Part shown: positions 3,276 to 48,020 of the stretch, one piece after another
How the letters are laid out: each line of letters opens with the position of its first letter
Numbering within the stretch: position 1 is the stretch's first letter
Origin: Pteria penguin
Taxonomy: Eukaryota; Mollusca; Bivalvia; Pterioida; Pteriidae
Assembly: GCA_035048485.1 (NCBI GenBank)
Contig: CM068590.1
Coordinates: 2,652,593 to 2,716,592 of the forward strand
DNA length: 64,000 bases
Direction: 5' to 3'
Position numbers and translations under genes: made by a program
The notes under the pieces: model-generated
Database searches by the model: none
The model's input: only the letters and a program-made list of their open reading frames with translations
What the model was told of the DNA's origin: nothing

Positions 3276-4639
3276 GAACCTTGATCTCTACATGGAGAGT
3301 CTACCTTAGAACCTTGATTTCTACATAGTCTATCTTAGAACCTCGATATCTACATAGAGAGTCTATCTTACAACCTTGATTGCTACATAGAGAGTCTATC
3401 TTAGAACCTATATATCTACATAGAGAGTCTATCTTAGAACCTTGATTTCTACATAGAGAGTCTATCTTAGAACCTTGATATCTACATAGACAGTCTATCT
3501 TAGAACCTTGACCTCTACATAGAGAGTCTATCTTAGAACCTTGATTTCTACATAGAGGGTCTATCTTATAACCTTGAATTCTACATAGAGCCTATCTCAG
3601 AACCTTGATCTCTACATATACAGTCTATCGTAGAACCTTCATCTCTTCTTTAAAATTTCTGTCTTAGACCCTTTATTTCTACATAGAGAGTCTATGTTAG
3701 AACCCTGATCTCTAGATAGAGAGACTATGTTAGTACCTTGATCTCTACTTAGAGAGTCTATCTTAAATCCTTGATGTCTACATATAGAGCCTATCTCAGA
3801 ACCTTGATCCCTACATAGAGAGTCTATCTTAGAAAATTGATCTCATTATAGAGAGTCTATCTTAGAACCTTGATTTCTACATAGAGATTCGATCGTACGA
3901 CCTTGATCTCTACATAGAGAGTCTATCTTAGAACCTTGATCTCTACATAGAGAGTCTATCTTATAACATTGACCTCAACATAGAGAATCTATCTTAGGAC
4001 CCTGATTTCTACATAGAGGGTCTATCTTAGAAACTTGACTTCTACATAGAGAGTCTATCTTAGGACCTTGACCTCTACATAAAGGGTAAATCTTAGAACC
4101 TTGGCCTCTAAATAGAGAGTCTATCTTAGAACCCTGATCTCTACATAGAGAGTCTCTCTTAGGACCTTGATATCTACATAGAGAGTCTATCTTAGAACCT
4201 TGATCTCTACATAGAGAGTCTATCTTAGGACTTTCTTCTCTACATAGAGAGTATATCTTAAAACCTTCATCTCTACATAGAGAGCCTATCTTAGAACCTT
4301 GATCTCTACATAGAGAGTCTATCTTAGAGCTTTGATCTCTACATAGAGAGTCTATCTCAGAACCTTGAATTCTACATAGAGATTCTATCTTAGAACCTTC
4401 ATCTCTACATAGAGAGTCTTTCTTAGAACCTTCATCTCTACATAGAAAGTCTATCTTAGAGCCTTGATTTCTACATAGAGAGGCTATCCTAGATCCATGA
4501 TTTTTACATAGAGAGTCTATCTTAGAACCCTGATCTCTACAAAGAGAGTTTATCTTAGAACCTTCATGTCTACAAAGAGAGCCTATCTCAGAACCTTTAT
4601 CTCTACATAGAGTGTCTATCTTAGGACCTTGATCTCTAT

Positions 4640-4910
4640 ATACAGAGCCGATCTAACAGCGTTGACCTCTACATAGAGAATCAATCGTACAACCTTGATC
4701 TCTACATAGAGTGTCTATCTTAGAAACTTGACTTCTACATAGAGAATCTATCTTAGGACCTTGATCTCTATACAGAGAGCCGATCTAACAGCGTTGACCT
4801 CTACATAGAGAATCTATCGTACAACCTTGATCTCTACATAGAGTGTCTATCTTAGAAACTTGACTTCTACATAGAGAATCTATCTTAGGACCTTGACCTC
4901 TACATAAAGA
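4640..4910. repeat. Tandem ~132-bp block (four 33-bp units)
   Basis: The block containing GCCGATCTAACAGCGTTGAC followed by the GAATCTATCGTACAACC and GTGTCTATCTTAGAAACTTG units is present twice in succession with only a few differences. It is a recent four-unit duplication within the array. Confidence 0.7.
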
Positions 4911-6485
4911 GTATATCTTAGAACCTTGGCCTCTAAATAGAAAGTCTATCTTAGAACCCTGATCTCTACATATAAAGTCAATTGTAGAACCTTGATCTCC
5001 ACATAGACAGTCTATCTTAGAACTTTGGCCTCTACATACAGAGTCTATCTTAGAACCTTCATTTCTACATAGAGAGTCTATCTTAGAACCTTGATTTCTA
5101 CATAGAGAGTCTATCTTAGAACCTTGATCTCTACATAGAGAGTCTATCTTAGAACCTTGATTTCTACATAGAGAGTATATCTCAGAGCCTTAATTTCTAC
5201 ATAGAGAGTCTATCTTAGAACCCTGATCTCTACATAGAGATTCTATCTTAGAACCTTCATCTCTACATAGAGAGTCTATCTTAGAACATATATCTCTACA
5301 TAGCGAGCCTATCTTAGAACCTTGATGTGTATATAGAGAGTCTATCTTAGAAACTTGTCCTCTACATAGAGAGTCTATCGTAGAACCTTGATCTCTACAC
5401 AGAGAGTCTATCTTAGAACCTTCATCTCTACATAGAGAGTCTATCTTAGGACTTTGTGCTCTACATAGAGAGTGTATCTTAGAACCTTCATTTCTACATA
5501 GAGAGTCTATCTTAGAACCTTGATCTCTACATAGACTGTCTATCTTAGTACCTTGATCTCTACATAGAGAGTCTATCTTAGAACCTTGACATCTACATAG
5601 AGAGTATATCTTAGAACCCTGATCTCTACACAGAGAGTCTATCTTAGAGCATTGATATCTACATAGAAAGCCTATCTTACAACTTTGATCTCTACATAGA
5701 GAGTTTATCTAAGAACCTTGATGTCTACAAAGACAGTCTATCTTAGAACCTTGACATCTACAGAGAGAGTCTATCTTAGAACCTTGATCTCTACATAGAG
5801 GGTCTATTTTATAACCTTGACCTCAAAATAGAGAATCTATCTTAGTACCCTGATCTCTACATAGAGTGTCTATCTTAGAAACTTGACCTCTACATAGAGA
5901 GTCTATCTTAGGATCTTGACCTCTACATAAAGAGTATATCTTAGAACCTTGGCCTCTAAATAGAAAGTCTATCTTAGAACCCTGACCTCTACATATTATG
6001 TCTATTGTAGAACCTTGATGTCTGCATAGATAGTATATCTTAAAACTTTGACCTCTACATACAGAGTCTATCTTAGAACCTTCATCTCTACATAGAGAGA
6101 CTATCTTAGGACCTTGATCTCTACATAAAGAGTCTATCTTAGAACCTTTATCTCTTCATAGAGAGTCTATCTTAGAACTTTGATCTCTACATAGAGAGTC
6201 TATCTTAGAACCCTGATCTCTACATAGAGACTCTATCTTAGAACTTTGATCTCTCTAAAAAGTCGATCTTAGAACCATGATTTATGCACAGAGATAGTAT
6301 ATTAGAACCTTGATTTCCATACATAGATATCATCTTAGAACCTTGATTTAGACATAATGAGAGCATCTTAGAACCTCGATCTATTAACAAGGATATACAA
6401 TATATACAATCACAAAAACTTGATCTCTTCATAGATATTCCAACTTAGAAGTTTGATCTCTACATGGAGATACCACAATAGAGTA

Positions 6486-6580
6486 TGTAACCAGGGGACG
6501 CTTACTCCTCCCGGGCATCTGGTCTCATCTCGATTTTATTGGGGTTCGCATTTGTCTGAATATGACACTATACACGACAT
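6486..6580 (+). mobile_element. Solo Penelope-like 3' tail inside the minisatellite
   Basis: The segment CAGGGGACGCTTACTCCTCC followed by GGGCATCTGGTCTCATCTCG and GGGGTTCGCA matches the tails downstream of the reverse-transcriptase fragments at 15.5, 29.8 and 44.5 kb. No coding remnant accompanies it. It interrupts the 33-bp array, whose degenerate units resume near 6640. Confidence 0.7.
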
Positions 6581-6639
6581 TGTCCTTTTATTCGATGAAC
6601 TATGAAATATGGTTTAGCCTTCGGCGCTTCTGCCGCTTT

Positions 6640-6875
6640 TACGTTTTCTACATAGCGATACTATCGTAGAATCTTGATCTATTAAGAAATATACCATCTT
6701 GGAATCTTGATGTCTGCATATAGAGTCTATCTTAAAGCCTTCATTTCCGTATAAAGATATAATCTCAGAAACTTGATCTCTTCATGGAGATTCTATCTTA
6801 GAACCTTGATTCCAAGATAACAAACTTCATTTATACACAGAGACAGCAACCTAGAACATATATCCATTAACAAAT
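6640..6875. repeat. Degenerate continuation of the 33-bp minisatellite
   Basis: Units such as TCTTGATGTCTGCATATAGAG and GAACCTTGATTCCAAGATAA are recognisably related to the main array but heavily diverged. Confidence 0.6.
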
Positions 6876-6889
6876 ATTCAATTTTAGAA

Positions 6890-7445
6890 CCTTGCTGTTT
6901 ACATACAGAGTCTATCTTAGAACTTTTATCTCTACATAGAGATTCTATTTTAGAACCTTGCTGTTTACATACAGAGTCTATCTTAGAACTTTTATCTCTA
7001 CACGGAGATTCTATTTTGGAACCTTGCTGTTTACATACAGAGTCTATCTTAGAACTTTTATCTCTACACGGAGATTCTATTTTAGAACCTTGCTGTTTAC
7101 ATACAGAGTCTATCTTAGAACTTTTATCTCTACACGGAGATTCTATTTTAGCACCTTGCTGTTTACATACAGAGTCTATCTTTGAACTTTTATCTCTACA
7201 TGGAGATTCTATTTTAGAACCTTGTTGTTTACATACAGAGTCTATCTTAGAACTTTTATTTCTACATGGAGATACTATTTTAGAACCTTGTTGTTTGCAT
7301 AATTGTCTATTTTAGAACTTTTATCTCTACATGGAGATTCTATTTTAGAACCTTGTTGTTTACATACAGAGTCTATCTTAGAACTGTATCTCTACATGGA
7401 GATTCTATTTTAGAACCTTGATTTATACACAGAGATACCATTTTA
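6890..7445. repeat. 66-bp-period minisatellite (paired 33-bp units)
   Basis: About eight copies of a dimeric unit alternate between a half with GCTGTTTACATACAGAGTCT and a half with TTATCTCTACACGGAGATTC. The dimer derives from the 33-bp family but was amplified as a 66-bp unit. The period keeps plus-strand frames open (75 and 99 codons), which are by-products. Confidence 0.88.
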
Positions 7446-8385
7446 GAACTTAAAACCCTAACTGCCATCGGCCGGCTGATTTGGGCCGATTGTAACATCC
7501 TTTGACTGCTATCGAGCGGATTGGGCCGATGCTCAAGAATAGCAAACTTATAAATATTTAATTACCAGAAATGAAGTGAGAATGATGAAATAATTTTCGA
7601 AATTGTTTATGTTCAACTTCATAATGACATCATGCAAACGTTATTTTCATTTGAATTCATTGCGTTGAGTACAAATAGAAATGTCTACCATTTGGGTAGA
7701 GTTTTACCAACGGAGCCTGAAAGGCGCACTGCTTTTCAAGAAAATCCAATCTTGCACAACATGCCACAGCAAAACGCTGAACCAACAGAGTAGTTGAATA
7801 TACTTATGCAACAGTGACTAATATTGAACTGGTGGATTTTGTGGTGGTGGTGGTGGTGGTGGTGTGTGTGTGTGTGTGTGGGGGGGGGGGGGTTGCACCC
7901 CCAACTTTGATTGGAAAATGTAATTGTAGGATTCATGAATGTCATTTTCGACCATTTCTAGGTGGACCGAATAGTGCAAAAGCAAAACCTCCCTTCTAAA
8001 ACTTTTAGATCCGGCTATGTATTGACCCATCTCTTTTGAGGAATATGTATTGAATTTCGTGACGTTATACATTTTTCAATGTTGTCCTAGGTATGACCGA
8101 GGTGTCAATTATTGTGACGTCATCTGATATATGTTCTATATTTATTATAACCACTAGGCTGGTGTCACTGCTGGTGGACTGATAATCCCTGAGGGCATCA
8201 TAAGTCTAGTTTTCAGTGCTTTTGTACTGACATGAGATTTTCTGTCATCAGATTAAGAAAATCACTCTAAAACTATGGAGTATCTACCTCATGCATAGCT
8301 CTGTCCTTAGATAGGTTCTTTGGTTCACTTTTCGGTCAATTTGGTTTTAACACTGCTCAGTAACACAGTAATTTTAATTAGAATA
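7446..8385. other. Non-coding with a compound GTG/GT/G microsatellite
   Basis: A (GGT)n-(GT)n-G12 tract lies at about 7841-7892, and GC-rich palindromic bits around GGCCGATTGTAAC lie near 7465-7530. No gene is supported; short frames through the microsatellite are artefacts. Confidence 0.5.
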
Positions 8386-14282: not shown

Positions 14283-14478
14283 CCTTAAGATACAGGGGCA
14301 GGCGTGGTGTAGTGGTTAAGCGCTTGGCTTGCGGCGCCGACGATCCGGGTTCGATTCCCGGGTTGCGCCACTATGTTTAAGAGGTTGGTAACCTCCTGCT
14401 TCCATGTCGCGATATAACTGAAATATTGTTGAAAGCGACGTAAAACACCAATCAACCAACAACCAACCTTAAGATACA
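14283..14478 (+). mobile_element. Complete short tRNA-SINE with 12-bp target duplication
   Basis: The element is 14295-14466 (172 bp), flanked by perfect CCTTAAGATACA copies at 14283-14294 and 14467-14478. The tRNA-like head carries an A box (TGGTGTAGTGG) and a B box (GGTTCGATTCC), the RNA polymerase III internal promoter. It is followed by the body CCTCCTGCTTCCATGTCGCG and GAAAGCGACGTAAAACACCA, and an (AACC)n-type tail. This is the only full-length copy of the short family in the window. It is annotated as a SINE rather than a tRNA gene because the head is fused to the body, which recurs at 10.4 and 17.8 kb. Confidence 0.95.
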
Positions 14479-14904: not shown

Positions 14905-15726
14905 ATTGGCTATTGGCTTCAATTTTACTTACAGATATATAGATGAATTGCTTTCAATTAATAATCCTTTATTCGCGGATAACCTTAGCATCATCTATCC
15001 AAGTGAACTGGAGGTCAAAGAAACCACAGAAAGTAGTAATTCTACTTCGTATTTAGATATTATGTTGTCTTTCGACATTAATGGTCAATTGAACACCTCA
15101 CTCTATGACAAACGTGACGATTTCAATTTCGCTATCACAATCTTTCCTTTCATAAGTAGCAACATTCCATCATCGCCCGCATACGGCGTATTCATTTCTC
15201 AGTTATTACGTTATTCCAAAGCATGTTCAAATTACAATGACTTTGTTCTGAGGGCGAGGCGACTTTCAGTTAAGCTACTCAACCAGGGTTAAATATGTGC
15301 TAGACTAGCAACGTCACTGAGGAAGTTCTCCGGTCGTTACGAGACTCATATGACTCCATATGATATCTCGTTATCCAGACTTTTAAATGATATTCTGGAC
15401 TGAGACCGACTCCGATCATTTTACACAAATTTGACACCTTCTTTACTAGAAGGTTACCTACTTCGACTTCTCCATATATAAATACATATGGAATTTACAC
15501 GATTTGACTCTTTCTACTGGGTATATGTGACGGGTGTTGCTAGCAAGCAGGAGATGCTCACTATCCCCGGGCACCTGATCTCACTCCATCACAGGGGTTC
15601 ACATATGCTGTTCAAGTAGACATATTTTGTTATTTTCCATTTGTTTTTCATTTTTATTGATTTTGTATGTCCTCTGGTTTCATGATTTTTGGACTTGTGG
15701 TTTGGATTTATCCATCATCTTTACAT
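14905..15726 (+). pseudogene. Penelope-like reverse transcriptase fragment, 5'-truncated
   Basis: The frame begins mid-domain (FNFTYRYIDELLSINN, motif C) and follows the C-terminal third of the reverse transcriptase at 42.7-44.7 kb almost base for base. In motif C the usual YIDD is kept. A TAA at 15290-15292 replaces a tyrosine codon, but the frame then continues to the normal terminator (DILD then TGA at about 15401). The untranslated tail with GTGACGGGTGTTGCTAGCAA follows. The left junction at about 14905 is a simple 5' truncation, typical of target-primed reverse transcription. The right end coincides exactly with the end of homology to the 44.7 kb copy (TCATCTTTACAT), which defines the family 3' terminus. 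It is an inactive fossil copy. Confidence 0.88.
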
Positions 15727-17817: not shown

Positions 17818-17990
17818 TATTTCGATTTAGTTGGTTGGTTGATTGGTGTTTTACGTCGCTTTCAACAATATTTCAGTTATATCGCGACATGGAAGCAGGA
17901 GGTTACCAACCTCTTAAACATAGTGGCGCAACCCAGGAATCGAACCCGGATCGTCGGCGCCGCAAGCCAAGCGCTTAATATTTCGATTTA
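17818..17990 (-). mobile_element. Short tRNA-SINE, head-truncated, 12-bp target duplication
   Basis: It has the same body as the 14.3 kb element in reverse orientation, at 17830-17978. It lacks the A-box part of the tRNA head (5' truncation at GCGCTTAA). Perfect TATTTCGATTTA repeats flank it at 17818-17829 and 17979-17990. Confidence 0.93.
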
Positions 17991-19734: not shown

Positions 19735-20528
19735 TCAGTTTATGCTATCTCGTGACACGGAGCGTCGGTTTATACGGTCTTATGAATCCAAAACAACAAC
19801 GAAACACCAGAGGATCTCATACCACTTTGACCATTTGATCACAAGCCAGCCACCTGACAAACAGTTATACCTGCTATTTATAGCAATCTAAGAAAAAGAT
19901 GAGCCTCGATATGAGAAATTGGAATTCCCCTCACTCACACCACTCTATAGAAACATGTATGGGCATCATTAGAGTATAAGAACACTGAATCCTTATCAGG
20001 AGGAACTCCTCTATGATCTTACAGAATCGTTTACATATTGATCATCTTTCTGATTCAGTCGTACTTTCTTTTTCATCAAACTGACATTTAACCTTATTTG
20101 TATTAAGGACATTGCATTACATCAGTTTCCTGTTTATCGTATCAGACTTCATTGAAAGTGAGGACGGGATTTTGCCACGCTCTTCAATTTCATGATTCTT
20201 GAACTACAAAGTCTATTTTACCCATAACATATTTGTATAAATTTCAGACCCAGCAGAGAGGGTAGGGGTTGATTACAGCACCCCCTCTCCCTTCCCAGTC
20301 CCGATAATTTTTCCGAGCAGGGTAAAAGTTTTATGGTCAATGCAGACAGTCTTTGTAAACAGTGTGTATTTTCTCTAATCCTCTCTAAGAATTCCGTTCT
20401 TTTGTAGAAAGTCTTCCAAGGTTTTTTTTCCTTTTTTTTCTTTTGGCAAATGTAGGAGTTATCTTTCTTTCACAATGAAATTCATTTCTGAAAATTCCGT
20501 ATTATTTGTTTCGTTTTGTAGAAAAAAG
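19735..20528 (+). other. Upstream region of TRIM-like copy A
   Basis: Blocks such as ATTGCATTACATCAGTTTCC and GAATCGTTTACATATTGATC recur upstream of copy B (32.9-33.5 kb) and in the orphan segment at 41.6 kb. GAAAATTCCGTATTAT and TGTAGAAAGTC blocks are shared with copy C (47.9 kb). A pyrimidine-rich tract ending TTTTGTAG just before the ATG looks like a 3' splice site for a 5'-UTR intron in all three copies. Confidence 0.6.
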
Positions 20529-21475
20529 ATGGCAGATCACCAGCGACCGATTCCATGTGAGGTCGATGGCTGTGGTAACTCTGCGCAATATCAATGCCTG
20601 AATTGTGAAGACGTTCTCTGTATCTGGTGTAAAGAGAAGCACGAAATGAAAAGAAAAACCCACAGGTTTGTCCTATACTCAGAGAGGGAAAAACAAATTT
20701 GCCAGAAGCACACTGAAAAAAATATCTTTGTTGGTGCAAGACATGTAATGAAGCATGTTGCTTAACATGTGTCTTAACATCACATAAGGAACATGTGATT
20801 AGACAGAAAGCGTCAAAAAAGATTTCGGAGGGCCCTTTCAGGATTGCCTGACACAATGGAAAAATCTTCTCCTCGAAGCCACACAAAAGACGACCCAGTA
20901 CAAATAGAACATCCAGAAAATTGACCAAGATTTGGTTTCCCATGCAAATCTTATCCATGACGCCGTAGACAAGAGCTTAGCTAAAATACGGAGCGAACTT
21001 AGAGAAATCAGCGAAAAGAAAGAAACGACACTTCAAGCACAAGAAAAGTCAATAAACGATAAGTATGAACAATTTAAAAGAAATGTTGAAGGACTGGAGG
21101 AACTAGTACAAAAAGGTGATATCAGTCTATTAGAGCACAAGCTTGATATCGCCGATATGAAAGCCCTTTCAGCACATACCCGACAGTCACCTCCGAGTTA
21201 CACTCCTGGTCAAACTGATGTTCAAACGATAGAAACCATGATCGGGAATCTGAACTCATCTGTACAGAATTTAAGAAAGAAAGTCTCACTCGATGGACCT
21301 CCTGCAGAACCGATCCCACGGGCGTCCGCGCCTGTTACGTCATTACTCTCCGCGCAAGCAGTAGTGTCATCATTCCGTCCGGATTATGGCTATCCGTACA
21401 TCGCCTGTACCACGTCATCAGGTATGGCCTGGGTGAAGACTGGCTCGACACGTATACAACTGATGAACAATAACG
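20529..21475 (+). pseudogene. TRIM-like B-box gene copy A, truncated pseudogene
   Basis: The start MADHQRPIPCEVDGCGN matches copies B and C. The first B-box is intact, with its Cys/His zinc ligands in the first ~45 residues. The frame shifts inside the second B-box near 20725, where the aligned amino acids pass into another frame. A short deletion follows near 20810 and an in-frame TAG lies near 20907. From about 20932 the coiled-coil region (EISEKKETTLQAQEKSINDK) and the linker are clean again, through to IACTTSSGMAWVKTGS. Similarity to B and C stops abruptly at 21475, before the propeller-like domain (about 200 codons missing). The lesions rule out a full-length TRIM protein. The truncation point lies 430 bp left of the RecQ helicase remnant, so the loss may be linked to that insertion. 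Confidence 0.88.
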
Positions 21476-21553
21476 GTAAACGTTATTTACTATCGGTTAT
21501 TTGTTTTGTTTGTTGGGGCTTCAATGCCATGACTATGCTGGCTTCGGCTCAGG

Positions 21554-21595
21554 GCCGATTGTGATTCACAATCGGCTTTTTTTTTTTTTTTTTTT
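21554..21595 (+). other. Perfect 11-bp hairpin followed by T19
   Basis: GCCGATTGTGA, a one-base loop and TCACAATCGGC are followed at once by 19 T residues. In bacteria this would be a textbook terminator. In a eukaryote it is more likely a transposon end or a retroposed small-RNA 3' end, immediately downstream of the truncated TRIM-like copy A. Confidence 0.6.
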
Positions 21596-21904
21596 GCACA
21601 ACTGCAGGAAATAAGGTCACAGGTGAGTAATACATACCTTATTTTAATTCAAAACTGCAAGATTTCTTGTAAAACATCCATTTTAAATACATTATTTCAC
21701 GTGTAAACTTTCGTAGCGATTTGAAAACTTTGCTCGGCGGCCATTTGTAATGACATCGGGGGAATATTCGGGTCGCGATGTCACATGGTTTCCTTATTTG
21801 GTATCAATTTCCTTTTATAGAAAATGGTAGTAAAATTATAGTAAAACTTGTGTAACACATGAATAAGACTGTATCTTGAGATTTTAGCGCCGAAAATTGG
21901 CAAA

Positions 21905-24900
21905 ATGGCTGTCGAAAGGGCGATACAAGAAACATTAACATAACTGCATATTGAATATGTTTTAAAAAAAGAACAATTGGACAAAAAAAGGATGTTTTTG
22001 CTGTGTTACCCACTAGATATGGAAAATCTATTATCTACACCTTGATGCCTTTCATTGTGGATAAGGTTCAAATATTTATAATTTATTTTTTGTTACTTGG
22101 TCTGAAGGTGTGTTTAAAGTTTAAAAATAAATTTCAAAAACTATTTATTTAATTATATTTTTTGTAAATTATTTACAATAATTAAAGTGTGTATGGTTTT
22201 TTTTTTTTATTATTATTATTTTTGGCAAAGCAGTACGAGATAACTTGCCTACAGTATTTCTGTCTGTCCAGTGATCCATTTTTTTAACATAGTCAATAAA
22301 ACAACCATACTTAAATCAGAGAGCACTTAAATTATTTAAAATGACAATGATCATGTAATGAGGAAGGGAGGGGGTAAAACGATGAAGATTTTTTTTTAAT
22401 AAGAAAGAAACAATCTCATGTATTTGTTTTCATTTTTTTATTTATAGTTTTAACACTCAGTTTTAGTGATTTCACCACTACTAGCTTTGATTGCAGACCA
22501 AGTAGAAATAATGAGGTCAAAGGAAATAGAAGTTGTGTCTCTTCGTGATTGTAAAGTTGCAGGTTACAAAGATTTTATATTGATTTCTACGTAAAACAAA
22601 AAAGCAAAAACAAATATAACAAAATAAACCTGTATTACATTTAGTATTATCATAATCAAAATTTAACACATGTTAAATTTGTCCATTTCATAAATTCTAT
22701 TCTAATATTATATTTTAGACTTCCCCACAGCAGCCTCTGTAATTTTTTTCAACACCTGAAGCTGCCATCTCAAATAGATGGAAAATTACTTTGAAAGAAA
22801 AATCTAATATTAGTTTAACAGTGTATGATGAAGCACATTGTATATCTACATGGTACGAACACCTTAATTATATCTTATATAAAGATTTGTTATCTGCAAA
22901 GCTTGTTGAAACAACAAGTAATTACTTTGTCATACTAAGTCACTATGTTTTTATCTTTAATCATCTTGACTATCAAGAAAAATATGAGAAGTAAACTTAA
23001 TTTGCATAATAATATATAATAACCATTTGTGTTTTGTGATATTTTTTTCATTTATTTAAATTTTTGTTATTATTTATTTGAAGGGGGATGGATTTTAGGC
23101 CAGAGTATAGACATACAGATGGATGCAGTCCTAACATAACATGCACGTTAACGCGAAAAGCGGTCACGAGGACTGCTTGAGCACACGTGCTAGGACTGCT
23201 CGACCGGACGCGCGTGCGCTCCTTGCGTTAACGCGGGAGGAAATTCGCGTTAACGCGATTTATTCCCGCGTGCGCTCGGTCCAGTCGAGCGTTCACATGC
23301 CTTCATTTGTAATTCTCTGTGCAGTGGTGCGGATGGAGGAAATAAAAGGGATCTAATTAAATTACTGCAAATATAAATACGTGTGTTATATATAATATTA
23401 AAATGACACTCTGCATTAAGCGTTTCATATGTAAAATGATAATGGAAATTACGGCGTAGACATGCACTAAGGTATTTATGAAAAAAAAACTTCGTCAGTT
23501 TATAGAATAAAGAATCTAGGATAATTACATTATAATTCTATTTTATCAATTTATTTTAATCAATTAAATTATGTATTTATTTCTTATTTGTTTATTTTTA
23601 AATAAATTATTTATGTATTTATTCCTATCTATATATTTATTATTGGGTTTTTTTTTAATTATCTATTTTTCAGAAAATATGAATACCATGATTATCATCA
23701 TTATTATTAAAGTTATTATTAATGTTATTAATTTTCTTCTTCTTCTTCTTTTTCTTCCTCGTATTATTATTATTATCATAAAATAAGAATAAATTTCATT
23801 ATATTCAATGTTCGGAAATTGTATTCAATATCTTTAAAATTCATCCCTTAACTCATAAACGTTTTATCTAATTCTAAATATTTACCTACATGCACGCAGT
23901 AATATGTTCTTATATTCAAATATAAAATGTATAACTCGATTCTCCTTCAAATCCTTCTCTATGTACATGTTAATGTAAGTTTTAAGTTGTAAGCAAGCGA
24001 ACGTGGCTGTCAAGCACGTTCACGCGGCAGTCAAGCGCGTGAACGCAGCAGTCAAGCGCGTTAACGCGGTCTCGAAATTAAGTTCACGAGAAACTCTGCG
24101 TTAACGCAGACGCGTGTGCTCAGCAGTCCTGAGCGCACGAGGAAAGCAAACTTCACGTTAACGCGACGTTAACACAATGTTATGTTAGGACTGCACCCCA
24201 CTGTATAAGTGCCTTACAGTCTATATTTGATGTGCCAAATCTTGTCCTGACTGCAACTGCAACACAACAAATTAAAGAGGACATTTTCACAGTGCTTTCT
24301 TTTGATGACAAGACAAACATCATGGTTAATCTGCCTGACAGGTGAATATTATAATGAAAATATTTTGTTCATTATCACAAATTGAAAGCATAAGCACTAT
24401 ATTAAAAATTCATATAAAGATGGGAAGGGATATCATTTTTTATCTCTTTTAGAAAATACAAGGGGTTGGAGTGTTAATATAAACCACCATCAATTTTATT
24501 TTTCTGTTACATGTCTATTGACTTGATCTCATTTTGTATTTAAAGGCCAAATGTCTTTCTTCATGTTCAACCTGCAACAGAAAATTTTGAAAAGGACTTG
24601 GATTGGATACTCGAATACCTCAAAGGAGAGAAGAGTAAAAAAAGAAAGATCATATTATTTGTAGATTCTTTAAATAAGTGTTTTCAAATCGACTTATGGA
24701 TAACTTCTAACCTTATGGATGATATTTATCATAACAAGGAAAGATCTTCAGCAAACAGACGAGTTGAAATGTTTCATGCAAATACTGACTCTGATACTAA
24801 AAACAGAATATTGACAGATTTTACAAGTGATCATAGCATTATTGAATTGCTAATATACACGATAGCTATTGGAATGGGAATCAATATTAAAGACATTGAG

Positions 24901-25272
24901 TTAATTATACACTGGGGTCTTCCAAAATCTACTTTACATTATTGGCAAGAAATAGGACGCTATGCAAGAGACAATAGAGAGGGCTTTGTTATTTCATATG
25001 TTTACCCAAGATGTTTATTAAATGCAGAGACTGGAATCAAAGAATTAGCTAGTGCATGTGATAAGCAGGAATGGATACGTACATCAATTTTAAAGGAATT
25101 TCAATTGAGTGAAATGAGCAAATGCGAACTTAAAAGACTTGGAGACTTGACTCAATGTTCTAAATTGTGTACTAAAGTATGCAAATGTGAACAATGCAAA
25201 TGCTGTACAAATTGTAGAATAAAATGCTCTTGTCCTTTAAAATGTGAGAACATTCTGTCAAATTTTGATTAA
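21905..25272 (+). pseudogene. RecQ-type helicase of a mobile unit, multi-exon, interrupted
   Basis: Inferred exons: 21905-22065, 22497-22590, 22731-22852, 23084-23123 continued at 24196-24341, and 24546-25272. Helicase landmarks appear in order: Walker A DVFAVLPTRYGKS (a usual Gly is Arg), DQVEIMRS, the DEAH box DEAHCISTW, then FRPEYRH, motif III LTATAT, motif IV IILFVDSL, motif V AIGMGINIKDIELIIHWGLP and motif VI YWQEIGRYARD. It ends with a Cys-rich tail (CSKLCTKVCKCEQCKCC). Splice phases agree across most junctions. Damage: an in-frame TAA about 13 codons after the proposed start, a frame change before motif I, and a 1,072-bp inverted-repeat insertion in the fourth exon. RecQ enzymes are 3'-5' DNA helicases. 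The short length, lack of RQC/HRDC domains and pairing with the DUF6589-like gene point to a transposon-borne helicase rather than a cellular one. Confidence 0.82.
23124..24195. mobile_element. 1,072-bp inverted-repeat element inserted in helicase exon
   Basis: The termini are perfect inverted repeats for 19 bp (TGCAGTCCTAACATAACAT at the left; its complement at the right). They continue as imperfect arms of 90 bp or more that share GGACTGCT(T)GAGCACACG. Both arms are unusually GC-rich and carry many copies of GTTAACGCG-like motifs. The middle is AT-rich with no coding capacity. Removing exactly 23124-24195 restores the helicase reading frame (…YRHTDG joined to PHCISALQ…). This fixes the boundaries and suggests insertion without a retained target duplication; if TGCA is a 4-bp duplication, the frame would be off by one. 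It is a non-autonomous DNA transposon of unknown superfamily. Confidence 0.88.
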
Positions 25273-25349
25273 TTGTTTAATATATACCAGTAAAAAGTAA
25301 AAGAAAAAAGTGGCATTTTATTCATGGTTTTAATCATCTTGCATTTGTT

Positions 25350-28300
25350 TTATAACAAGTAACCGTTTAGCATATTCTTTTTTAACCGCTCTAGTCTTGC
25401 ATTTAACTTTAAAGGATTAACATTTGTGAGTATCTTAAATTCAAAATCTGGAAATGCACTGTGTCCTCTTCCTGGTTTGTTGATGAATATCTCTTCAGGT
25501 CCCATTAGTTCAATAAATTTTATAATGTCTTTCGATCCATCAATTAATGCCTTTTTATGTTTTTTGACTCTGTAACGTTGTACATCGTAAACATGTTTTA
25601 GTGTTTTTCCCAAGCCAACCATCTGGCTGTGTCTCGCTATGGTTTCGCCTTTTACACTGTCTGTAATATTAAATATAGGTATAAACAGACTTTTGAACAA
25701 TAGCTGTAAGAAGCACATACATTGCTTACCTCAGAGTTCAATGATAATTTCTGAAAAGTGTTTTTAAAGAAATAAGAAGTTAAAAAATTACAAAATACTG
25801 CTTTTAAATCAAATAATTCTATGATATACATATAGATACCTTTATACTCATGATTTAGGTGTTCCATATGTAAATCCATTGCAATATTGTTTCCTGTTCC
25901 ATCTCTAGTATTTACTGTTCTATTCCATGATAACGTGTGTCTTAGTCTTGGGGATACTGCACCATTGATAGCTGACAACAGACGTTGGCCGGAAGAAAGT
26001 ATTTTGGATGATTTTTCTAAAAAAACTGCAACATATCAAATTTCCAATGCAGTATAATTCTTTCCCCATCATTTTCTCGTATCGCATCTCTCCTTGCTTT
26101 CTGGTTTAACCCTCTCCAAATTACCATTAAGGCATAGTTCTTCTTATGATCTGTCAAAGCATTTGCGACATATTGCCGTTTACCTTTCTTTGGTTTTTCA
26201 CATTTCCTACATTCCTCAGAACAATACCATCTCCCACTAGGCACATCATCTTCATTCCTTTCAAGGCATTCAAGATGGAACCATCCACCATTTGCACAGA
26301 GTTTATTTTCACAATATATCATTAATCCAGGCTTGTCTTGTCTACATATGCAATATTCATTATCATCAGCATTATCAGTATTGTGTAGATCTACTGCTCT
26401 ATTTACAATACCCATACAGGATAGAAAGCACATGTCAACAATTTCTCTAGCTGTCTGTTCTAATAACTGAAGTTTGTCTTCTCTTTCCTCAGAAAAGTTG
26501 AAGGGCTCTTCATCCACATTCTGGAGTTTTAAAATATGAAGGGCTGCTAATGTGATATACCCATCACAGCAAAAATATAAAAATTCTTCATCATGGTAAA
26601 AATCTTCCTTGACATTATGGGTAACACTTCTGTGATTAAAGTAATTTTTCAATTGGAAAAGAGTCCCTTTATCACGCACACTTTTTCCGCTATATAGTTC
26701 ATGATATGCAACCTGAAATATTTAAAATTTCATATAAAATATATTTCATTTAAAAAAACAAACAATGAATAATGCACAAGTTTTCTTTTTGTTTACAACT
26801 ATAATACCTTATAATTAGGGGGAAAAAGAAAGAATATTAATTCATCAGAGTTACATTGACCTTGTCAAAATGTCCATGACCTTTGATATATTATAAAAAT
26901 TGAATTTCAATTTTACCTGAAGCAAAAGCAGTCTCTTGTGCCATTCTTGAATGGACATCTTAAGACCCTGTAGCTGTGACCATGGATTGTTACCATTTAT
27001 TCTTGCTGATTGGACATCATTCCCCCTTTCACAACTTAATCCATCAGCATGCAAGGGTATAATAAATGGGGCACCATCTGGCTTCAGTGGAACATACTTT
27101 TGATAGATCTCCATTATCTCAATCATTTCTGATGTTTTACTTTCATCTTTATCAATAATACCAAGAGGAACCTTAAACATACAATTTTAATTATATAGAC
27201 ATGTAAATATATTATCTTTTTGATTTTAAACTAAATCATTAAAATAAACTTACTGCATACAAGTGTAAAGAAAACACACTTGGGGCAAAACTTCTATTTA
27301 ATAAAACAAACTTAATTTGTAATGCCACAAAAAGGATATAAAGATAAATAAAATAGTAAATGTTACATTCTATTATTACACTTTACTTACAATTTCACTT
27401 TGTAAAGAAGATTCCTTTTGGTAGGGATGGTGAATGTGAGTATTCACCTCAACATCTTGAAATATTGAGATGTTATCATGCAGTGTATCCTCATTGTTAT
27501 TGTTGTAAGTTTCCAGCTACCTGTTCTTTCCACATAGTTACTTCTCTATCAAACCCTTTTCTCAATCTGTCTATGGCAGATCTTGTACCTTTAATGCCCA
27601 TACACAAACCTAAATGTTGTAAGTTGGCAAACTCCTTGAAAAAGAACATTTGAAGTTAAGTCTTTTTAAACACTTGATAATCAATATTATAGTAAAAATG
27701 GTAAATTGTAAATATTTTAAAACTAATTAATTTGTGTGCTTTGTTACTTTAATTAATTAACATAATTAAAAATATATAAAAGTAGGACTAAATTTGAGAA
27801 ATTGTTTATAAAAAAATAACAAATATAATGAAGGATAATTTTTGGTGGACAAATGAGAGTTATAGAAATAAAAGTAAACATTTTAAACATACAGCTCTTA
27901 ATATAATTACCTCTCTTTTGTAACCAGAAAGCCAAAGTTGGATAGAATAGATCTCTTGGAAACCATTCATAAGTCTTGGAGCTCTTTGGTATAATATCTG
28001 CGATACTATAGATCCAATAGTAGGAATAACAGATACATCAGAATTGGATACAAGTCCCAAATTTTTAACAGACTTGGTAGAAGTTAAACAGCCGATCAGT
28101 GCACTTGAAAGTACTGGGCAATCTCTGGATAATTCCTCATACCTTAAATCCCATGAGAATTTTTTTATTTCATCTATTTTTTGGTGCCCACTGAACAAGG
28201 AATCTTTATTTTTGCAAACTGTTGCAACCTCATTTCTTACTGTTTCTTGGATGTACGTTTTTAACGCTTTTTTAAATCCGACACGATAATTTGCTAAAAT

Positions 28301-28375
28301 TTTTATTGCTTTCCCATAATGTCTCTGATTTATATGTCTGATGGCCTTTTTCACTTCTGAAGCAGCTTGTGAAAT
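25350..28375 (-). pseudogene. PHD-finger / DUF6589-like protein gene, multi-exon
   Basis: Inferred minus-strand exons: 28375-27911, about 27634-27521, 27171-26917, 26712-25840 and 25660-25350 (TAA). Upstream exons and the start codon were not found. Recognisable segments in order: QILYQRAPRLMNGFQ; LQHLGLCMGIKGTRSAIDRL; HADGLSCERGNDVQSAR with LQGLKMSIQEWHKRLLLLQ; RDKGTLFQLKNYFNHRSV; a PHD finger (CICRQD…YCENKLC…WFHLEC…WYCSEEC, all eight C4HC3 ligands present); and NIAMDLHMEHLNHEYK. These resemble the invertebrate/fungal DUF6589 family, recalled from memory. One frame change, probably in a T7 run near 26018-26026, separates the PHD part from the MEHLN part. A stop or missing exon after 27521 is also unresolved. 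It converges on the helicase gene with only 77 bp between stop codons. The function is unknown; a transposase-like or chromatin-reading role is inference. Confidence 0.72.
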
Positions 28376-28493
28376 CTATATTAAACGTTTGTTATAAATG
28401 AAAATTTGTCTAAAAATGTTATTTCAAACATTTTCATTAAATTTCTGGATTCGGTAAATTAGAGATTACAATAATGAAGCAGTGTGATAGGAT

Positions 28494-28525
28494 ATTATTA
28501 TTATTAATATTATTATTATTATTAT

Positions 28526-28599
<74 letters not shown>

Positions 28600-28614
28600 T
28601 GATTATTATTATTT
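28494..28614. repeat. (TTA)n/(GTA)n compound microsatellite
   Basis: TTA repeats pass into about 29 AGT/GTA trinucleotides and then back into ATT. Minus-strand poly-threonine and poly-leucine frames are artefacts. Confidence 0.96.
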
Positions 28615-28684
28615 GGTCTCTCTCCGCGTCCCAAGAAACAACTTTCGAAAAGCTGAGCAAATTCTCATTACTGCTTTCGTTTTT

Positions 28685-28860
28685 CATGAAAATATGTAAA
28701 GAAATATAGTTTGGACATCATTCAAGAAGACATATGAGCAGGCTGTATGGCACAAATCATGCAAATAAATAGAAAATTAACATGGAAAAAGACATTACAA
28801 AAATATTCGATTGTACTGCAGTCACGATGCCGACTTTGGACGATCACTTAAAGTAATAAA
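28685..28860 (+). repeat. Dispersed repeat family R1, diverged copy
   Basis: It shares GGCACAAATCATGCAAATAA-like and GACATTACAAAAATATTCGA blocks, and the CGA(T/C)GCCGACTT(T/C)GGACG motif, with 36865-37000. Confidence 0.65.
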
Positions 28861-29351
28861 CTTCCCTCAATCCGTGTGGTTAATCGGTTTACGGGCACCC
28901 ACCTTTCAGCTCACTGCAAAATACATTTAAAACATATAAATAATCCTCTATATAGAGAACAAGGATCAACAGGTTTCTCAAGACGAGAAGTCATAAAATT
29001 CTCACATGAAACGTTTACAGAATAGTATACTAGTATCAAAAATATGTCATGCGATATCAACGAGTAAAGCGTTCTCTGTCCGTCTGTCAGCGAGCTAAGA
29101 TCATTGATCTGTAGGAGTTTCGAGTAACAGTCACATGTAAAGAGACTTAGGATTTTGTCTCCCCTGAAAAATGTTAGACAGGCTCGTCATAGAGTTCCGA
29201 CCGCCCTGTTAGTCAACGTGCAGAGCTTGTGTAAGTCTGTATAGGATTGCAGAGGGGCCCAATACAAGACCCATTGTCTTAGCGAGATCTCGGGGACAAA
29301 CTGCCAATATCGAAGGCGTTTAATAATTTTAGAATCCGTCGACATGAAATT
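28861..29351. other. No feature seen
   Basis: Unique-looking sequence without a supported reading frame or repeat, between repeat R1 and the retroelement fragment. Confidence 0.3.
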
Positions 29352-29890
29352 ATGGGAACTTTGACCCTCTTTCCGTTTCTTTGCAGCAATATCCCGTCCT
29401 CACCTGCCTATGGAGTTTTTATATCTCAACTTATAAGGTACGCAAGAGCCTGTTCTCTATGCGACGGTTTTATTCCAAGGGCCAAACGACTGGCCACTAA
29501 GTTGCTCATGCAGGGATATGTTAAAGAACGTCTGAAATCGTCACTGAGGAAGTTCTACGGTCGCTATGGGGATCTTGTACGAAAATATGATGTGCCTCTT
29601 TCTAGAATGATTGATAATATTCTGGAATGCGACTAAATGACCTGTTCAGTGAACACCAAATATGACTTTGTATACCAATTTTGTACTTTCGTATGTAAAA
29701 TTAGGAAACCAAAACTCTTGATTTTGACATGTTTCTTAAGAACTGCTGTGACGGGTGATATATGCAAACAGGAGACGCTTACTCTCCCCAGGCACCTGGT
29801 CTCACCTCGGAATTTTTCAGTATTTCGGGGTGCACAACAGTTTCTTTTTGAATATTACACGATTTTGTATTTGTCCTTGGACTGAAAATG
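29352..29890 (+). pseudogene. Penelope-like element fragment: RT C-terminus plus 3' tail
   Basis: The frame to 29636 matches the last ~90 residues of the element reverse transcriptase: NIPSSPAYGVFISQLIRYAR, KLLMQGY and SLRKFYGRY. It ends at a normal stop. The tail that follows contains GTGACGGGTGATATATGCAA and CAGGAGACGCTTACTCTCCC. It is a different subfamily from the 15 kb and 44 kb copies, since the coding part has diverged. An (AAAT)n tract at about 29938-29985 sits close to the 3' end. Confidence 0.82.
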
Positions 29891-32879: not shown

Positions 32880-33506
32880 CAGAATTCTGAAAATCCCCTA
32901 AATGCAACAATTCTATAGAAGCATGCGCAGACCTTGTCAAAGTATTAGGGCACTGAATTCATATCAAGAGTACCTCCTCCACGTTCTGACAGAACGGTTT
33001 TTATTTCTGCCACCTATCTGACGTACTCGTACTTTCTTTTTTCATTAAATTGACTTTTAACCTTAAAATCCAAGGCTGTAAAAAAGAAGGAGGTGAACTG
33101 TTGATAGGAGCATTAGAGGCTACCTTCGTGTAGGTAATGTCTATGTATTACACTACATCGTCTCGCCTTTTGTTGTAAATTGCATTATATCAATTTCTTT
33201 TATGTTATTCATTGTGTCGGACCTCGTTACAAGAGAGGGGAATTCAATTCGCTTTTCATTTTCATGATTCTTGATGTGCAGAGTTGGTTTTATCCATCTC
33301 CTACATAGATTTCAGGCCCCTGCCAAACCTCTAATTATGTTACCGTACATGTATACAATTCTATCAGTAACAAAGGCAATTATCTATATACATAATCACG
33401 CATTTTTATGTAGCCTTCTATTCTCTACGGGCCTGAATTAATTATAAATCATTTGTGGATTTTTTATGAACTCTTTTTTATTATTTGTATCGTTTTGCAG
33501 AAAAAA
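32880..33506 (+). promoter_or_regulatory. Upstream/5'-UTR region of TRIM-like copy B
   Basis: Homology blocks shared with copy A and the 41.6 kb segment (ATTGCATTATATCAATTTCT and CAAGGCTGTAAAAAAG-type) cover this stretch. TTTTGCAG at 33493-33500 is a strong splice acceptor six bases before the ATG, implying a 5'-UTR intron. No confident TATA box or initiator was identified. Confidence 0.45.
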
Positions 33507-35129
33507 ATGGCAGATCACCAGCGACCGACTCTATGTGAAGTAGATGGTTGTGAGAATCCAGCGCAATATCAATGTCTGAATTGTGAAGACGATTTCTGTA
33601 TCAGGTGTAAAGAGAAACACCAAGGAAAAAGAAAAGCACACAAGTTTGTCATATACTCAGAGAGAATGAAACGAATTTGCAAGAAACACACTGAAAATAA
33701 ATACCTTTATTGGTGCAAAATATGCAGTGAACCTTGTTGTGGTACATGTGCCATCACATCACATAATGGGCATACCGTCGTCGAAATAGAGGATGCAATC
33801 TGCGATAAGAAAGAAAACGTAAAAAGGGACTTAGGAGGACCCTTTCGGGTATTTCTGACACAATGGAAAAATCTCCTGCACGAAGCCAAACAGACGAAAA
33901 CTGCATATGAAGCCAACATGTTTAAACTTGACCAAGACTTAGTTGGGCATGCAAAACGTCTCCATGCAGCCATAGATAAGAGCTTAGCTAAAATACGGAG
34001 GAAGCTGAGAAAAATCAGTGAAAAGAAAGAGGAAACACTTCAAGCACAAGAAAAGTCAATAAATGACAAGTATGAACAATTCAAAAGAAATATTGAACAA
34101 CTAGAGGAACTTGTACAAATAAGTGATATCAGTCTATTAGAAAACATGCTTGATATCACCGATATGGAAGTCCTTCCAGCCCTCACCCGACCCTCACCTC
34201 CTAGTTACACTCCTGGCAACATTGATGATCAAACGATATTCACAATGATCGGGAACCTAGACTCGTTTGTAGGGGATTTAACAAAGGAAATCTCAGTCGA
34301 TGTTGGAAATAACAGACCTGCAGAACCTTTTCCACGAGCGTCTGTGACGTCATTACTATCCACGCCAGTTGTAGTATCATCATTCCGTCATGAGTATGCT
34401 TATGATCTTGATTATGTATTTGGTTATCCATACATCGCCAGCACCACGTCATCAGGTCAGGCCTGGGTGACGACTGATTGGAGACATATACACTTGATGT
34501 ACCATTACGGTGATGTACTGGATATTATCGACACTGGTTTCGACGTCAATAGTTTTACCACCACAGTAAATGAAGATGCCCTCATTACAGGCAATTGCTG
34601 TATCACGTCAGCTTCAAAAGAAGCATCGTCATGGAATGTAAACACCTTATTTGAAACGCAATACGACCCACAGGCAATTTGTTCGCTACGTAACGGTGAC
34701 GTCGTCGTGACGTCAGGCATCGGTGAACACCGGGTCATCCAGTACAGTATTAAAGGGGCAGTGGTACATGAATTTGATGCAAGCTTGTTTTCCGATCCAT
34801 GTGCAGTAGCTGTCAATAAAGTGAACGTGGATTTGTACGTGTGTGATGGAGGAAAAGTATTAGTGTTTGGGAAAGACAACACACTACGCTACACATACAC
34901 AGGCTTTGATGGAACATCATTCAACCCCTGGGACGTCAGTACTGATAACAATGGCCGCATTCTCATCACCGACAACAACAACAAAATACACATTCTGGAC
35001 AAGGAGGGCAGCTTTCTTCAATATTTACAGTATCCTGGACTGAAGAATCCACTGTATGTTAGTGTAGACAGCGAGGGGCGAGCCTGGATCGGGGAGGAGA
35101 AAAGAGAGGTTAAAATAGTGAAATACTAG
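33507..35129 (+). CDS. TRIM-like protein copy B (two B-boxes, coiled coil, propeller-like C-terminus)
   Basis: A single intact coding exon of 540 residues. The ATG at 33507 is chosen because it directly follows a splice acceptor and aligns with copies A and C; the open frame extends 18 codons upstream into non-coding sequence. Residues ~9-48 form a first B-box-type zinc finger (CEVDGCENPAQYQCLNCED…CIRCKEKH). Residues ~57-96 form a second (ICKKHTENK…WCKICSEPCCGTC…SHNGH). Residues ~105-245 are charged and coiled-coil-like (KISEKKEETLQAQEKSINDK). The C-terminal ~260 residues have NHL-like blade motifs (NGDVVVTSG, VAVNKVNVDLYVCDGGKVLV, DNNGRILITDNNN, DSEGRAWIGE). There is no RING domain, so E3 ligase activity cannot be assumed. 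In bivalves such proteins are expanded and often discussed as immune or RNA/protein-binding factors; the role here is unknown. Confidence 0.93.
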   Translation: MADHQRPTLCEVDGCENPAQYQCLNCEDDFCIRCKEKHQGKRKAHKFVIYSERMKRICKKHTENKYLYWCKICSEPCCGTCAITSHNGHTVVEIEDAICDKKENVKRDLGGPFRVFLTQWKNLLHEAKQTKTAYEANMFKLDQDLVGHAKRLHAAIDKSLAKIRRKLRKISEKKEETLQAQEKSINDKYEQFKRNIEQLEELVQISDISLLENMLDITDMEVLPALTRPSPPSYTPGNIDDQTIFTMIGNLDSFVGDLTKEISVDVGNNRPAEPFPRASVTSLLSTPVVVSSFRHEYAYDLDYVFGYPYIASTTSSGQAWVTTDWRHIHLMYHYGDVLDIIDTGFDVNSFTTTVNEDALITGNCCITSASKEASSWNVNTLFETQYDPQAICSLRNGDVVVTSGIGEHRVIQYSIKGAVVHEFDASLFSDPCAVAVNKVNVDLYVCDGGKVLVFGKDNTLRYTYTGFDGTSFNPWDVSTDNNGRILITDNNNKIHILDKEGSFLQYLQYPGLKNPLYVSVDSEGRAWIGEEKREVKIVKY

Positions 35130-41975: not shown

Positions 41976-42740
41976 AAAAAGGGTTCGCGCAAATATAAAT
42001 TTATTGTTTTAAGATATCCAGATACATATTTTGTGAAAAACCACTCTGAATCGAAAAATAAGTACTCTGAAGATGACATAAAAACATGCTGGACTCATTG
42101 ATTGACAATATATATGTTGCGTTCGGTGACCAGGTCTTCCAACAAATCATCGGAATCCCTATGGGGACTAACTGTGCTCCTTTGCTAGCCGATTTGTTCC
42201 TTTCGTCGTACGAAATTGACTTTTATACAAAATCTTATAGGTCAAAATAAGAAGCAATTGGCTTTGTCCTTTAATTTTACATTCAAATATATTGATGATG
42301 TACTAACTATAAATAACAAAAACTTTTATACATTCGTATATACAATATATCCAAAGGAACTTGAAATTAAGGACACTACAATATCCAATTCATGTACTTC
42401 ATATTTAGATCTACTTATTGATGTCGACCGAGATGGTAAACTTACTACTTCAATTTATAACAAACGTGATGACTTTAGTTTCCCCATTGTTAGCTTTTCA
42501 TATACTAGTAGCAACATTCCTTTATCACCTGCGTACAGTGTTTATGTATCCCAATTGATTCCATATGCGCGAGCGTCATCTGAATATTGCTCTTTCATTT
42601 ATCGAAGCTAATTACTAGGAGAAAAGCTACTCAAACAAGGATATGAGATATCACGACTTATGTCAACACTCCGGAAATTTTACGGTCGTTATAAGGACCT
42701 TATTTGCTCATATGCTGTATCGTTGTCTGACATGTCATTA
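41976..42740 (+). pseudogene. Penelope-like reverse transcriptase remnant, frameshifted
   Basis: Segments SESKNKYSEDD, then (new frame) LIDNIYVAFGDQVFQQIIGI and PMGTNCAPLLADLFLSSYE, then (third frame, from about 42216) FKYIDDVLTINNKNF, SYLDLLIDVDRDGKLTTS, NIPLSPAYSVYVSQLIPYAR and RKFYGRYKDL. The motifs follow the next element closely but at lower identity. At least two frameshifts and a nonsense codon disrupt it. It lacks the 3' tail and abuts the following copy directly at about 42740, a head-to-tail arrangement often seen in Penelope-like elements. Confidence 0.82.
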
Positions 42741-42745
42741 CTGGT

Positions 42746-44718
42746 GATCTCGATATAGTTAAAAACACTAAATTAAGAGAATTTTAACTTAAAGGTCCAA
42801 AATACAGAGAACCCAGATCATTCACATGGAGCCAAAATTTTGAGAATATTATGAACTGCTGCGAGGAAAATGCCACACGATGGGCAAAAAGAGAGGAAGT
42901 ACAAGTCGACACTCTTTCGGAATGGATAAAATCTATTGCAGTACTGCTGAGATCAAAACTTAAAAAATTACAAGGTTCTGTAAACACCAGATTCGAATCT
43001 ATTTTTAAAGATGCTGATGTTGTCAGAGAACTTACCTTCCTCCAAGAACATTATATCATTACACCAGCAGATAAAGCATCTTAAAATTATACATTTACTT
43101 GTAAGAAATATTACTTTGACAGCCTAGTGAAAGAATTAGGATTAAATTCAGTTCCAGGAAATCCTACTTATATTCTCACGAACTTTTCGATTTCGGAAGT
43201 ACTCGAGAATCATAAATCTGTCCTCAATACGTTTGGTATTGACTCAAATAAATTGAATTTAGAACTTCCATATTTGTACTGTATTCCAAAAATGCACAAA
43301 ACTCCGTACAAACAACGCTTTATCGCTGGTTCCTCGAAGTGTTCCACAAAATCTGTATCGATGCTTCTCACAAAAATATTATCAGAAATTAAATCTGGCC
43401 TTTATAGATATTGCGAAACAGTATATTCCAGAAGTGGAATTAATCAAATGTGGATCCTTAAAAATTCAAAAGAGTTGTTAGAACATCTAAAATCTAAAAG
43501 TTTTACTAAAATTCACTCCATCAAGTCTTTTGACTTTTCGACTCTTTACACAACGATCCCTCATCAGAAATTAAAAGACAGATTAGCGGAAAGTATTCAA
43601 AATGCATTTACTAGTAAAAACGGAAGCCGCAAATTCAAATATATAGTAATAGGCCACGATAAAACTTACTTTGTTAGGGAAAATTCTGATTCAAAAAATA
43701 AATACACTGAAACAGCTGTCATCCAGATGTTGAACTTTCTTATCGATAACATTTTTGTGGTGTTTGGAGGTAAGGTTTTTCAACAAATTATCGGCATTCC
43801 AATGGGCACTAACTGTGCTCCGCTTCTGGCTGACATATTCCTTTATTCATACGAAGCTGAGTTCTTTCAGTCTTTGCTTTCGCAAGGAAAAAAACAATTG
43901 GCTCTTGGCTTCAATTTTACTTACAGATATATAGATGACTTGCTTTCAATTAATAATCCTTCATTCGCGGATTACCTTAGCATCATCTATCCAAGTGAAC
44001 TGGAGGTCAAAGAAACCACAGAAACTAGTAATTCTACTTCGTATTTAGATATTATGTTGTCTTTCGACATTAATGGTCAATTAAACACCTCACTCTATGA
44101 CAAACGTGACGATTTCAATTTCGCTATCACAAACTTTCCTTTCATAAGTAGCAACATTCCATCATCGCCCGCATACGGCGTATTCATATCTCAGTTAATA
44201 CGTTATTCCAGAGCATGTTCAAATTATAATGACTTTGTTCTGAGGGCTAGGCGACTTTCAGTTAAGCTGCTCAACCAGGGTTATATATGTGCTAGACTAG
44301 CATAGTCACTGAGGAAGTTCTACGGTCGTTACGAGACTCTTATTACTCCATATGATATCTCGTTATCCAGACTTTTAAATGATATTCTGGACTGAGACCG
44401 ATTCCGATTACTTTACACAGATTTGACACCTTCTATACCAGAAGCTTACCTACTTCGACTTCTCCATATATAAATACATATGGAATTCACACGATTTGAC
44501 TCTTTCTACTGGGTATATGTGACGGGTGTTGCTAGCAAGCAGGAGATGCTCACTCTCCCCGGGCACCTGATCTCACTCCATCACAGGGGTTCACATATGC
44601 TCTTCAAGTAGACATATTTTGTTATTTTCCATTTGTTTTTCATTTTCACTGATTTTGTATGTCCTATGGTTTCATGATTTTTGGACTTGTGGTTTGGATT
44701 TATCCATCATCTTTACAT
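42746..44718 (+). pseudogene. Penelope-like element, best-preserved copy (RT + 3' tail)
   Basis: One frame runs from about 42746 (DLDIVKNTKLREF) to the terminator near 44395. It is interrupted by stops at 42785, 43082 and 44303, so the longest uninterrupted part is 392 codons (43127-44305). Reverse-transcriptase landmarks: YCIPKMHKTPYKQRFIAGSS, motif A SFDFSTLYTTIPH, motif B IIGIPMGTNCAPLLADIFLY, motif C YRYIDDLLSINN, then SYLDIMLS and YDKRDDF. No GIY-YIG endonuclease is visible downstream; upstream is truncated. Absence of a C-terminal endonuclease would suit either an endonuclease-deficient or a Naiad-like (N-terminal endonuclease) Penelope clade. The 3' tail ends at 44718 at exactly the same base as the 15 kb copy. 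It is inactive but recent. Confidence 0.88.
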
Positions 44719-47862: not shown

Positions 47863-48020
47863 TCCTCTTAGAGATTCATCCACAAAGAACTGAATTTATT
47901 TATTATAATTTGTAGAAAGTCTCACAAGGTTCCATTTTGTCTCAAAGTAGGAGTTATCTGTCCTTGGCGATTAAATTCATTTCTGAAAATTCCGTATTAT
48001 ACGTTTTGTTTTGTAGAGAA
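47700..48020 (+). promoter_or_regulatory. Upstream/5'-UTR region of TRIM-like copy C, with (CT)n
   Basis: A (CT)22 tract at about 47814-47857 replaces the sequence present at the same place upstream of copy A. AAATGCAGATAGTCTTTCTAT, TTTGTAGAAAGTCTCACAAGG and GGAGTTATCT blocks are shared with copy A (20.34-20.47 kb). TTTTGTAG ends four bases before the ATG, a likely splice acceptor. Confidence 0.55.

Follow-up and report, generated by a model that had tools for sequence, protein, structure and literature searches.

A broken DNA-transposon remnant in Pteria penguin with a RecQ-type helicase gene and a PHD-finger-bearing DUF6589 gene, most likely of the AcademH lineage

Results

We analyzed a window of 64,000 nucleotides (C11:2652593-2716592) from a genome assembled into 49 contigs, 838,482,794 bases in all. 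A pair of convergent genes in this window is, with high probability, what is left of a DNA transposon, now broken. Its sister copies contain a RecQ-type helicase gene and a DUF6589 gene, likely that of the transposase, which converge tail to tail; inverted ends enclose the two, with target duplications of 9-10 bp outside them. The lineage to which the element most likely belongs is AcademH.

Structure of the window copy

The exons of both genes were placed with relatives as a guide; their borders are approximate and the splice sites putative. The remnant occupies 21478-28375. Homology to the copies on C1 and C3 begins at 21478, and the start given in the initial annotation (21905) was therefore too far inward. 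On the other side, homology to L003, the stretch with the C3 copy, extends to 28314, and 28315-28375 was assigned to the remnant through an exon match. The left terminal inverted repeat (21478-21818, + strand) matches the C1 copy at either end and lacks its outer 23 bp. The terminus TAGCTTCAATATTTCGCCACACC, present in other copies, is absent from this left end.

The helicase gene lies on the + strand. Exon 1 (21905-22068) has the GKS motif together with an internal stop and a frameshift, exon 2 (22454-22576) contains VISPLLALIADQ, and exon 3 (22743-22853) contains DEAHCISTW. Exon 4 is split into two parts, the first with DFRPEYRH (23085-23115) and the second with LVLTATAT (24204-24342). The last exon (24544-25272) matches Helicase_C at 56.9 bits (Pfam cut-off 23.5) and ends in a Cys-rich tail. 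The DUF6589 gene is on the - strand. From its 5′ side it consists of an exon for an N-terminal helical region (27908-28375), fused exon remnants (27388-27631), an exon carrying what is proposed as the second catalytic D (26917-27186; the D of HADGLSCER is at 27043-27045), an exon with the PHD finger (26206-26367) and the proposed catalytic E (25862-25864) at 25841-26721, and a last exon (25350-25661). DUF6589 (PF20231) matches at 27186-26851 with 37 bits (Pfam cut-off 27). As first reported from the letters, the genes converge: the stop codon of the helicase gene is at 25270-25272 (+), that of the DUF6589 gene at 25350-25352 (-), and exactly 77 bp (25273-25349) separate them. Their naming as a RecQ-type helicase and a DUF6589/PHD gene is borne out by these matches and by those of the finger to ING2 and YNG1.

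Both genes are decaying, as had also been noticed. As we read its frames, the helicase gene contains one or more in-frame stops and is frameshifted in exons 1 and 3. A 1,088-bp insertion at 23116-24203 separates the two parts of its exon 4. The ends and the TA duplication of this insert suggest a Tc1/mariner-like MITE; the C1 and C3 copies do not have it at the corresponding site. Similar MITE-like sequence is also seen in the C13 stretches L006-L011. Near 26020 the DUF6589 gene is interrupted by a frameshift and a stop codon, and it is missing two parts that its relatives have, the block that holds the first conserved D and the N-terminal Cys-rich region. Because the first-D block is present in both sister copies, the window copy has lost about 0.8 kb at 27507-27512, where the exon remnants are fused.

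When 21440-21960 was compared with 28376-29700, no convincing pair of inverted ends was detected in the window; the right end is lost. The window copy begins just inside the terminus, at the point where a TRIM-like fragment (20401-21480) breaks off. This fragment is the first of three TRIM-like paralogues (20401-21480, 33414-35129 and 47909-49713) and is truncated at the edge of the transposon remnant. The paralogue at 33414-35129 has an open frame of 571 aa with B-box and NHL matches. Beyond the remnant, no convincing match to the 3′ half of the TRIM-like gene was found in the window outside the other two paralogues.

Other repeated DNA occurs in the window. A tandem-repeat array of diverged copies covers about 6 kb (1438-7450). 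A tRNA-Arg prediction (14297-14369) lies within a repeat with related stretches near 17834-17978, 56830-56970 and 60811-60868, and this repeat is perhaps a tRNA-derived SINE. Reverse-transcriptase-like coding pieces, presumably Penelope-like, are repeated at 14905-15726, 29283-29636 and 42045-44718; an open frame of 406 aa at 43085-44305 gave no Pfam match.

Sister copies, inverted ends and target duplications

Twelve stretches of the genome were retrieved and compared with the window copy. The C1 copy (L001/L002) and the C3 copy (L003) contain both genes in the same convergent order, and their inverted repeats begin TAGCTTCA, with the terminus TAGCTTCAATATTTCGCCACACC. The C3 element is 6,758 bp long. 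Its inverted ends of 57 bp are 98% matching, and it is flanked by a 10-bp target duplication with 10/10 identity (ATCACATTTG). In the C1 element the inverted ends are about 360 bp long and interrupted by a nested insert; the target duplication is 9 bp, with 8 of 9 positions matching.

A second family (L023-L026) is represented by copies at C13:35.8 Mb and C5:12.7 Mb, which are about 92-96% alike in their main aligned pieces. Its gene layout is also convergent. The C13:35.8 Mb copy, 9,616 bp long, has the ends TAGCCGCAAGTAGTGG, and its 10-bp duplication agrees at 9 of 10 positions; in the C5:12.7 Mb copy only one such end was found. Two end patterns were found, TAGCTTCAATATTTCGCC... and TAGCCGCAAGTAGTGG..., the latter in the second family, and the target duplications were measured in three elements. 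In the C1 copy, the C3 copy and the second family, both genes sit inside shared inverted ends. The helicase and DUF6589 genes therefore form one mobile unit with inverted ends and 9-10 bp duplications. This had been proposed from the window before any copy was compared, along with a search of the flanks for terminal repeats and target duplications, and both were found.

Eight stretches of C13 (L005-L012, 0.2-6.5 Mb) carry the left end of the element and helicase sequence; no DUF6589 match was found within their 10 kb. Their 16 outer bases are near-identical and come in two versions, so these stretches look like segmental duplicates of one insertion.

Genome-wide neighborhood of the two genes

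The last helicase exon, used as query, gave at least 88 matches in the genome, and the exon with the PHD finger at least 33. Clustering at 10 kb reduced these to 71 helicase loci and 24 loci for the DUF6589 query. Eight of the 24 matched only around the PHD finger (query 105-185) and served as the control; this cut was chosen after viewing the matches. A helicase match lay within 10 kb of 10 of the 16 DUF6589 loci, compared with 0 of the 8 PHD-only controls and an expected rate of 0.0017 per locus. At the remaining 6 of 16 there was no helicase match within 10 kb. The initial annotation had suggested such a neighborhood check across bivalves, cnidarians and sponges; the two genes do co-locate in the one genome that we covered. 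By subtraction, 61 of the 71 helicase clusters have no DUF6589 locus by this query, and these 71 are unsorted and will include host RecQ and other helicases.

Judged by match strands, six of the ten pairs are convergent (the window, C1, C3, C5:12.7 Mb, C13:35.8 Mb and C4:30.6 Mb) and four are divergent (C5:48.7, C6:38.5, C8:17.7 and C13:27.5 Mb). The pairs at C4:30.6 Mb, C6, C8 and C13:27.5 Mb are known from match strands only. Two distant helicase loci, L013 and L014, showed no DUF6589 inside the 10 kb fetched. For L014 there is a DUF6589 gene 8 kb away, beyond the fetched stretch; for L013 none was found. At L013 (1712-2935 and 4763-6005; C3:11.46 Mb) a helicase of the same type stands near an open reading frame that may resemble a MULE transposase. 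This locus is perhaps another helicase-carrying element.

Relatives of the two proteins

DUF6589 proteins of Priapulus, of seven bivalve species and of the gastropod Gigantopelta, nine in all, have 43-53% identity. A profile search for DUF6589 added two Mytilus proteins, one Pinctada protein and a more distant fish protein. In Pfam, DUF6589 is listed with function unknown.

Among the best 120 of 6630 helicase matches, the six closest (P0010-P0015) have 38-51% identity, four of them from Pinctada, Sinanodonta, Saccostrea and Dreissena; beneath these six, the named matches in the same 120 are mostly bacterial RecQ. Among solved structures, the helicase matches RECQ5, WRN and RecQ best. The Cys-rich tail is common to the close relatives that extend that far. 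Three of the relatives (P0010-P0012) were scanned for domains; Helicase_C and DEAD matched, and RQC and HRDC did not, in agreement with the absence of RQC and HRDC first remarked on in the window. Host RecQ or PHD genes are rejected on the domain content of these scanned relatives and because sister copies have inverted ends and target duplications. In Pinctada, the helicase and one DUF6589 protein come from contigs of the same length (59,165,298), which lends weak support to the pairing. No relative was found in viral contigs (queries A3 and P0010) or in prokaryote genome contigs (A3 only).

A PHD finger inside the likely transposase

D374, D526 and E848/E853 (P0001 numbering) are among the acidic positions that the DUF6589 alignment shows as conserved; D374 was placed by motif and reads differently in one relative. 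We infer that the DUF6589 protein, the likely transposase, is of the DDE type, with the D of CFDNVN, the D of ADGLSCER and the E of DLHMEFLNKEYK as putative catalytic residues. AlphaFold models of P0001 (12 sequences) and P0132 (13 sequences) were of poor quality, with mean pLDDT values of 49.5 and 42.6, respectively.

The PHD finger (P0001 688-732) falls between the second D and the E, within the span of the DUF6589 profile (425-897). The PHD gene had been seen at first as a separate chromatin-reading partner of the helicase. Because the finger lies within the most likely transposase, we no longer regard it as one. The best solved-structure matches of the window finger are ING2 (5.1e-10), YNG1 (1.6e-9) and ING1; the PHD-type Pfam matches of the window exon are all under the curated cut-offs. 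All eight zinc ligands (C4HC3) are present, as are the Y, M and W positions found in ING2 (9m4s) and YNG1 (2jmi). These aligned residues are presumably the H3K4me3 cage residues of ING2. All nine relatives that have a finger retain M and W, and eight of them have an aromatic residue at the Y position; P0003 has E there. PHD fingers of the ING/YNG1 type are H3K4me3 readers, and the finger of the element is predicted from its conserved residues to bind H3K4me3.

The number of fingers differs among related genes. The window family has one. The locus at C4:21.0 Mb also has one, with L replacing M, and no helicase within 10 kb. Two tandem fingers were found in a related DUF6589 gene in L021 (2057-2338; C5:48.70 Mb), whose helicase is 8 kb away and divergent. 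In L023/L024, of the second family, no PHD finger was detected at E up to 1. It is possible, although we hold this only tentatively, that the families with 0, 1 or 2 fingers (gained, doubled, lost) represent a natural experiment in the chromatin targeting of a DNA transposon.

Discussion

AcademH, of the Academ superfamily, was reportedly described by Kojima in 2020. A later paper by the same author gives AcademH as helicase-encoding with duplications of 9 or 10 bp and AcademX with 3 or 4 bp, and links these lengths to their helicase and nuclease (excerpt of PMC10045372). Since the helicase and the 9-10 bp duplications match these published marks, AcademH is the most likely assignment; for AcademX, 9-10 bp is the wrong length. 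The initial annotation spoke of a poorly described transposon. It is a DNA transposon, and to judge from that excerpt its kind had already been described (PMC10045372), so that part of the claim does not stand. The possible novelty is that the likely transposase has an internal PHD finger; no report of a PHD finger in such a transposase was found among the papers listed in the literature searches (titles and abstract openings). Terminal inverted repeats and an animal host from a group with an Academ expansion, the bivalves, add to the likeness. AcademH is also given as low-copy elements in three fungal phyla (excerpt of PMC10799480); Academ is not mentioned in PMC12730594.

A separate helicase-carrying superfamily, resembling AcademH only in the helicase and the length of the duplication, seems to us very improbable. 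It draws on the facts that DUF6589 has no known function in Pfam, that no paper in the literature searched names DUF6589, and that AcademH is known here from its description and not from its sequence. However, both the helicase and the 9-10 bp duplications fit the published description of AcademH, and Academ has expanded in bivalves, with 100 curated elements (excerpt of PMC10294476).

KolobokH or a related Kolobok-type element, likewise equipped with a RecQ helicase, was considered in place of AcademH, and we find this very improbable. Kolobok target duplications are TTAA, whereas those found here are 9-10 bp, which disfavors KolobokH; the helicase here also lies on the opposite strand, tail to tail, and the host is an animal. 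In favor of this reading, KolobokH is a DNA transposon that likewise encodes a RecQ helicase, and in the red-algal element Kolobok-1_CCri the helicase is on the complementary strand (excerpt of PMC9587614). That two unrelated host genes or pseudogenes adjoin by chance can practically be dismissed: the window copy has no inverted-end pair of its own and adjoins duplicated TRIM-like genes, but the sister copies have both genes, inverted ends and duplications, and 10 of 16 loci show co-location.

For an element of the AcademH lineage, transposition might proceed as follows. The DUF6589 protein would bind the ends of the element and insert it with a 9-10 bp stagger. The helicase could unwind the ends or the target, or aid repair of the donor gap. 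The PHD finger, if it binds H3K4me3 as its conserved residues predict, would couple transposition to active chromatin and might steer where the element lands.

This arrangement resembles RAG1/RAG2 and PiggyMac, in which a DDE recombinase is coupled to a zinc finger that binds histone H3; for the present element the DDE type is proposed and the binding predicted. The PHD finger of RAG2 is said to tie V(D)J cleavage to active chromatin. In RAG the finger sits in the partner protein, whereas the ING-type finger of the present element is located in the proposed catalytic region of the likely transposase itself. It differs likewise from the fingers of ING2 and YNG1 in that it belongs to a transposon protein and is present 0, 1 or 2 times depending on the family. 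The cysteine-rich domain of PiggyMac differs from a canonical PHD finger, and its binding to H3 is weak regardless of methylation (excerpt of PMC8086355).

DUF6589, a domain of unknown function, is now tied to inverted-repeat DNA transposons with a RecQ-type helicase and 9-10 bp duplications. If the finger reads H3K4me3, the element would have a chromatin reader built into the catalytic region of its own DNA transposase. Because a single genome holds families that differ in finger number (0, 1 and 2), such targeting can be tested by comparing the positions of their copies with those of promoters.
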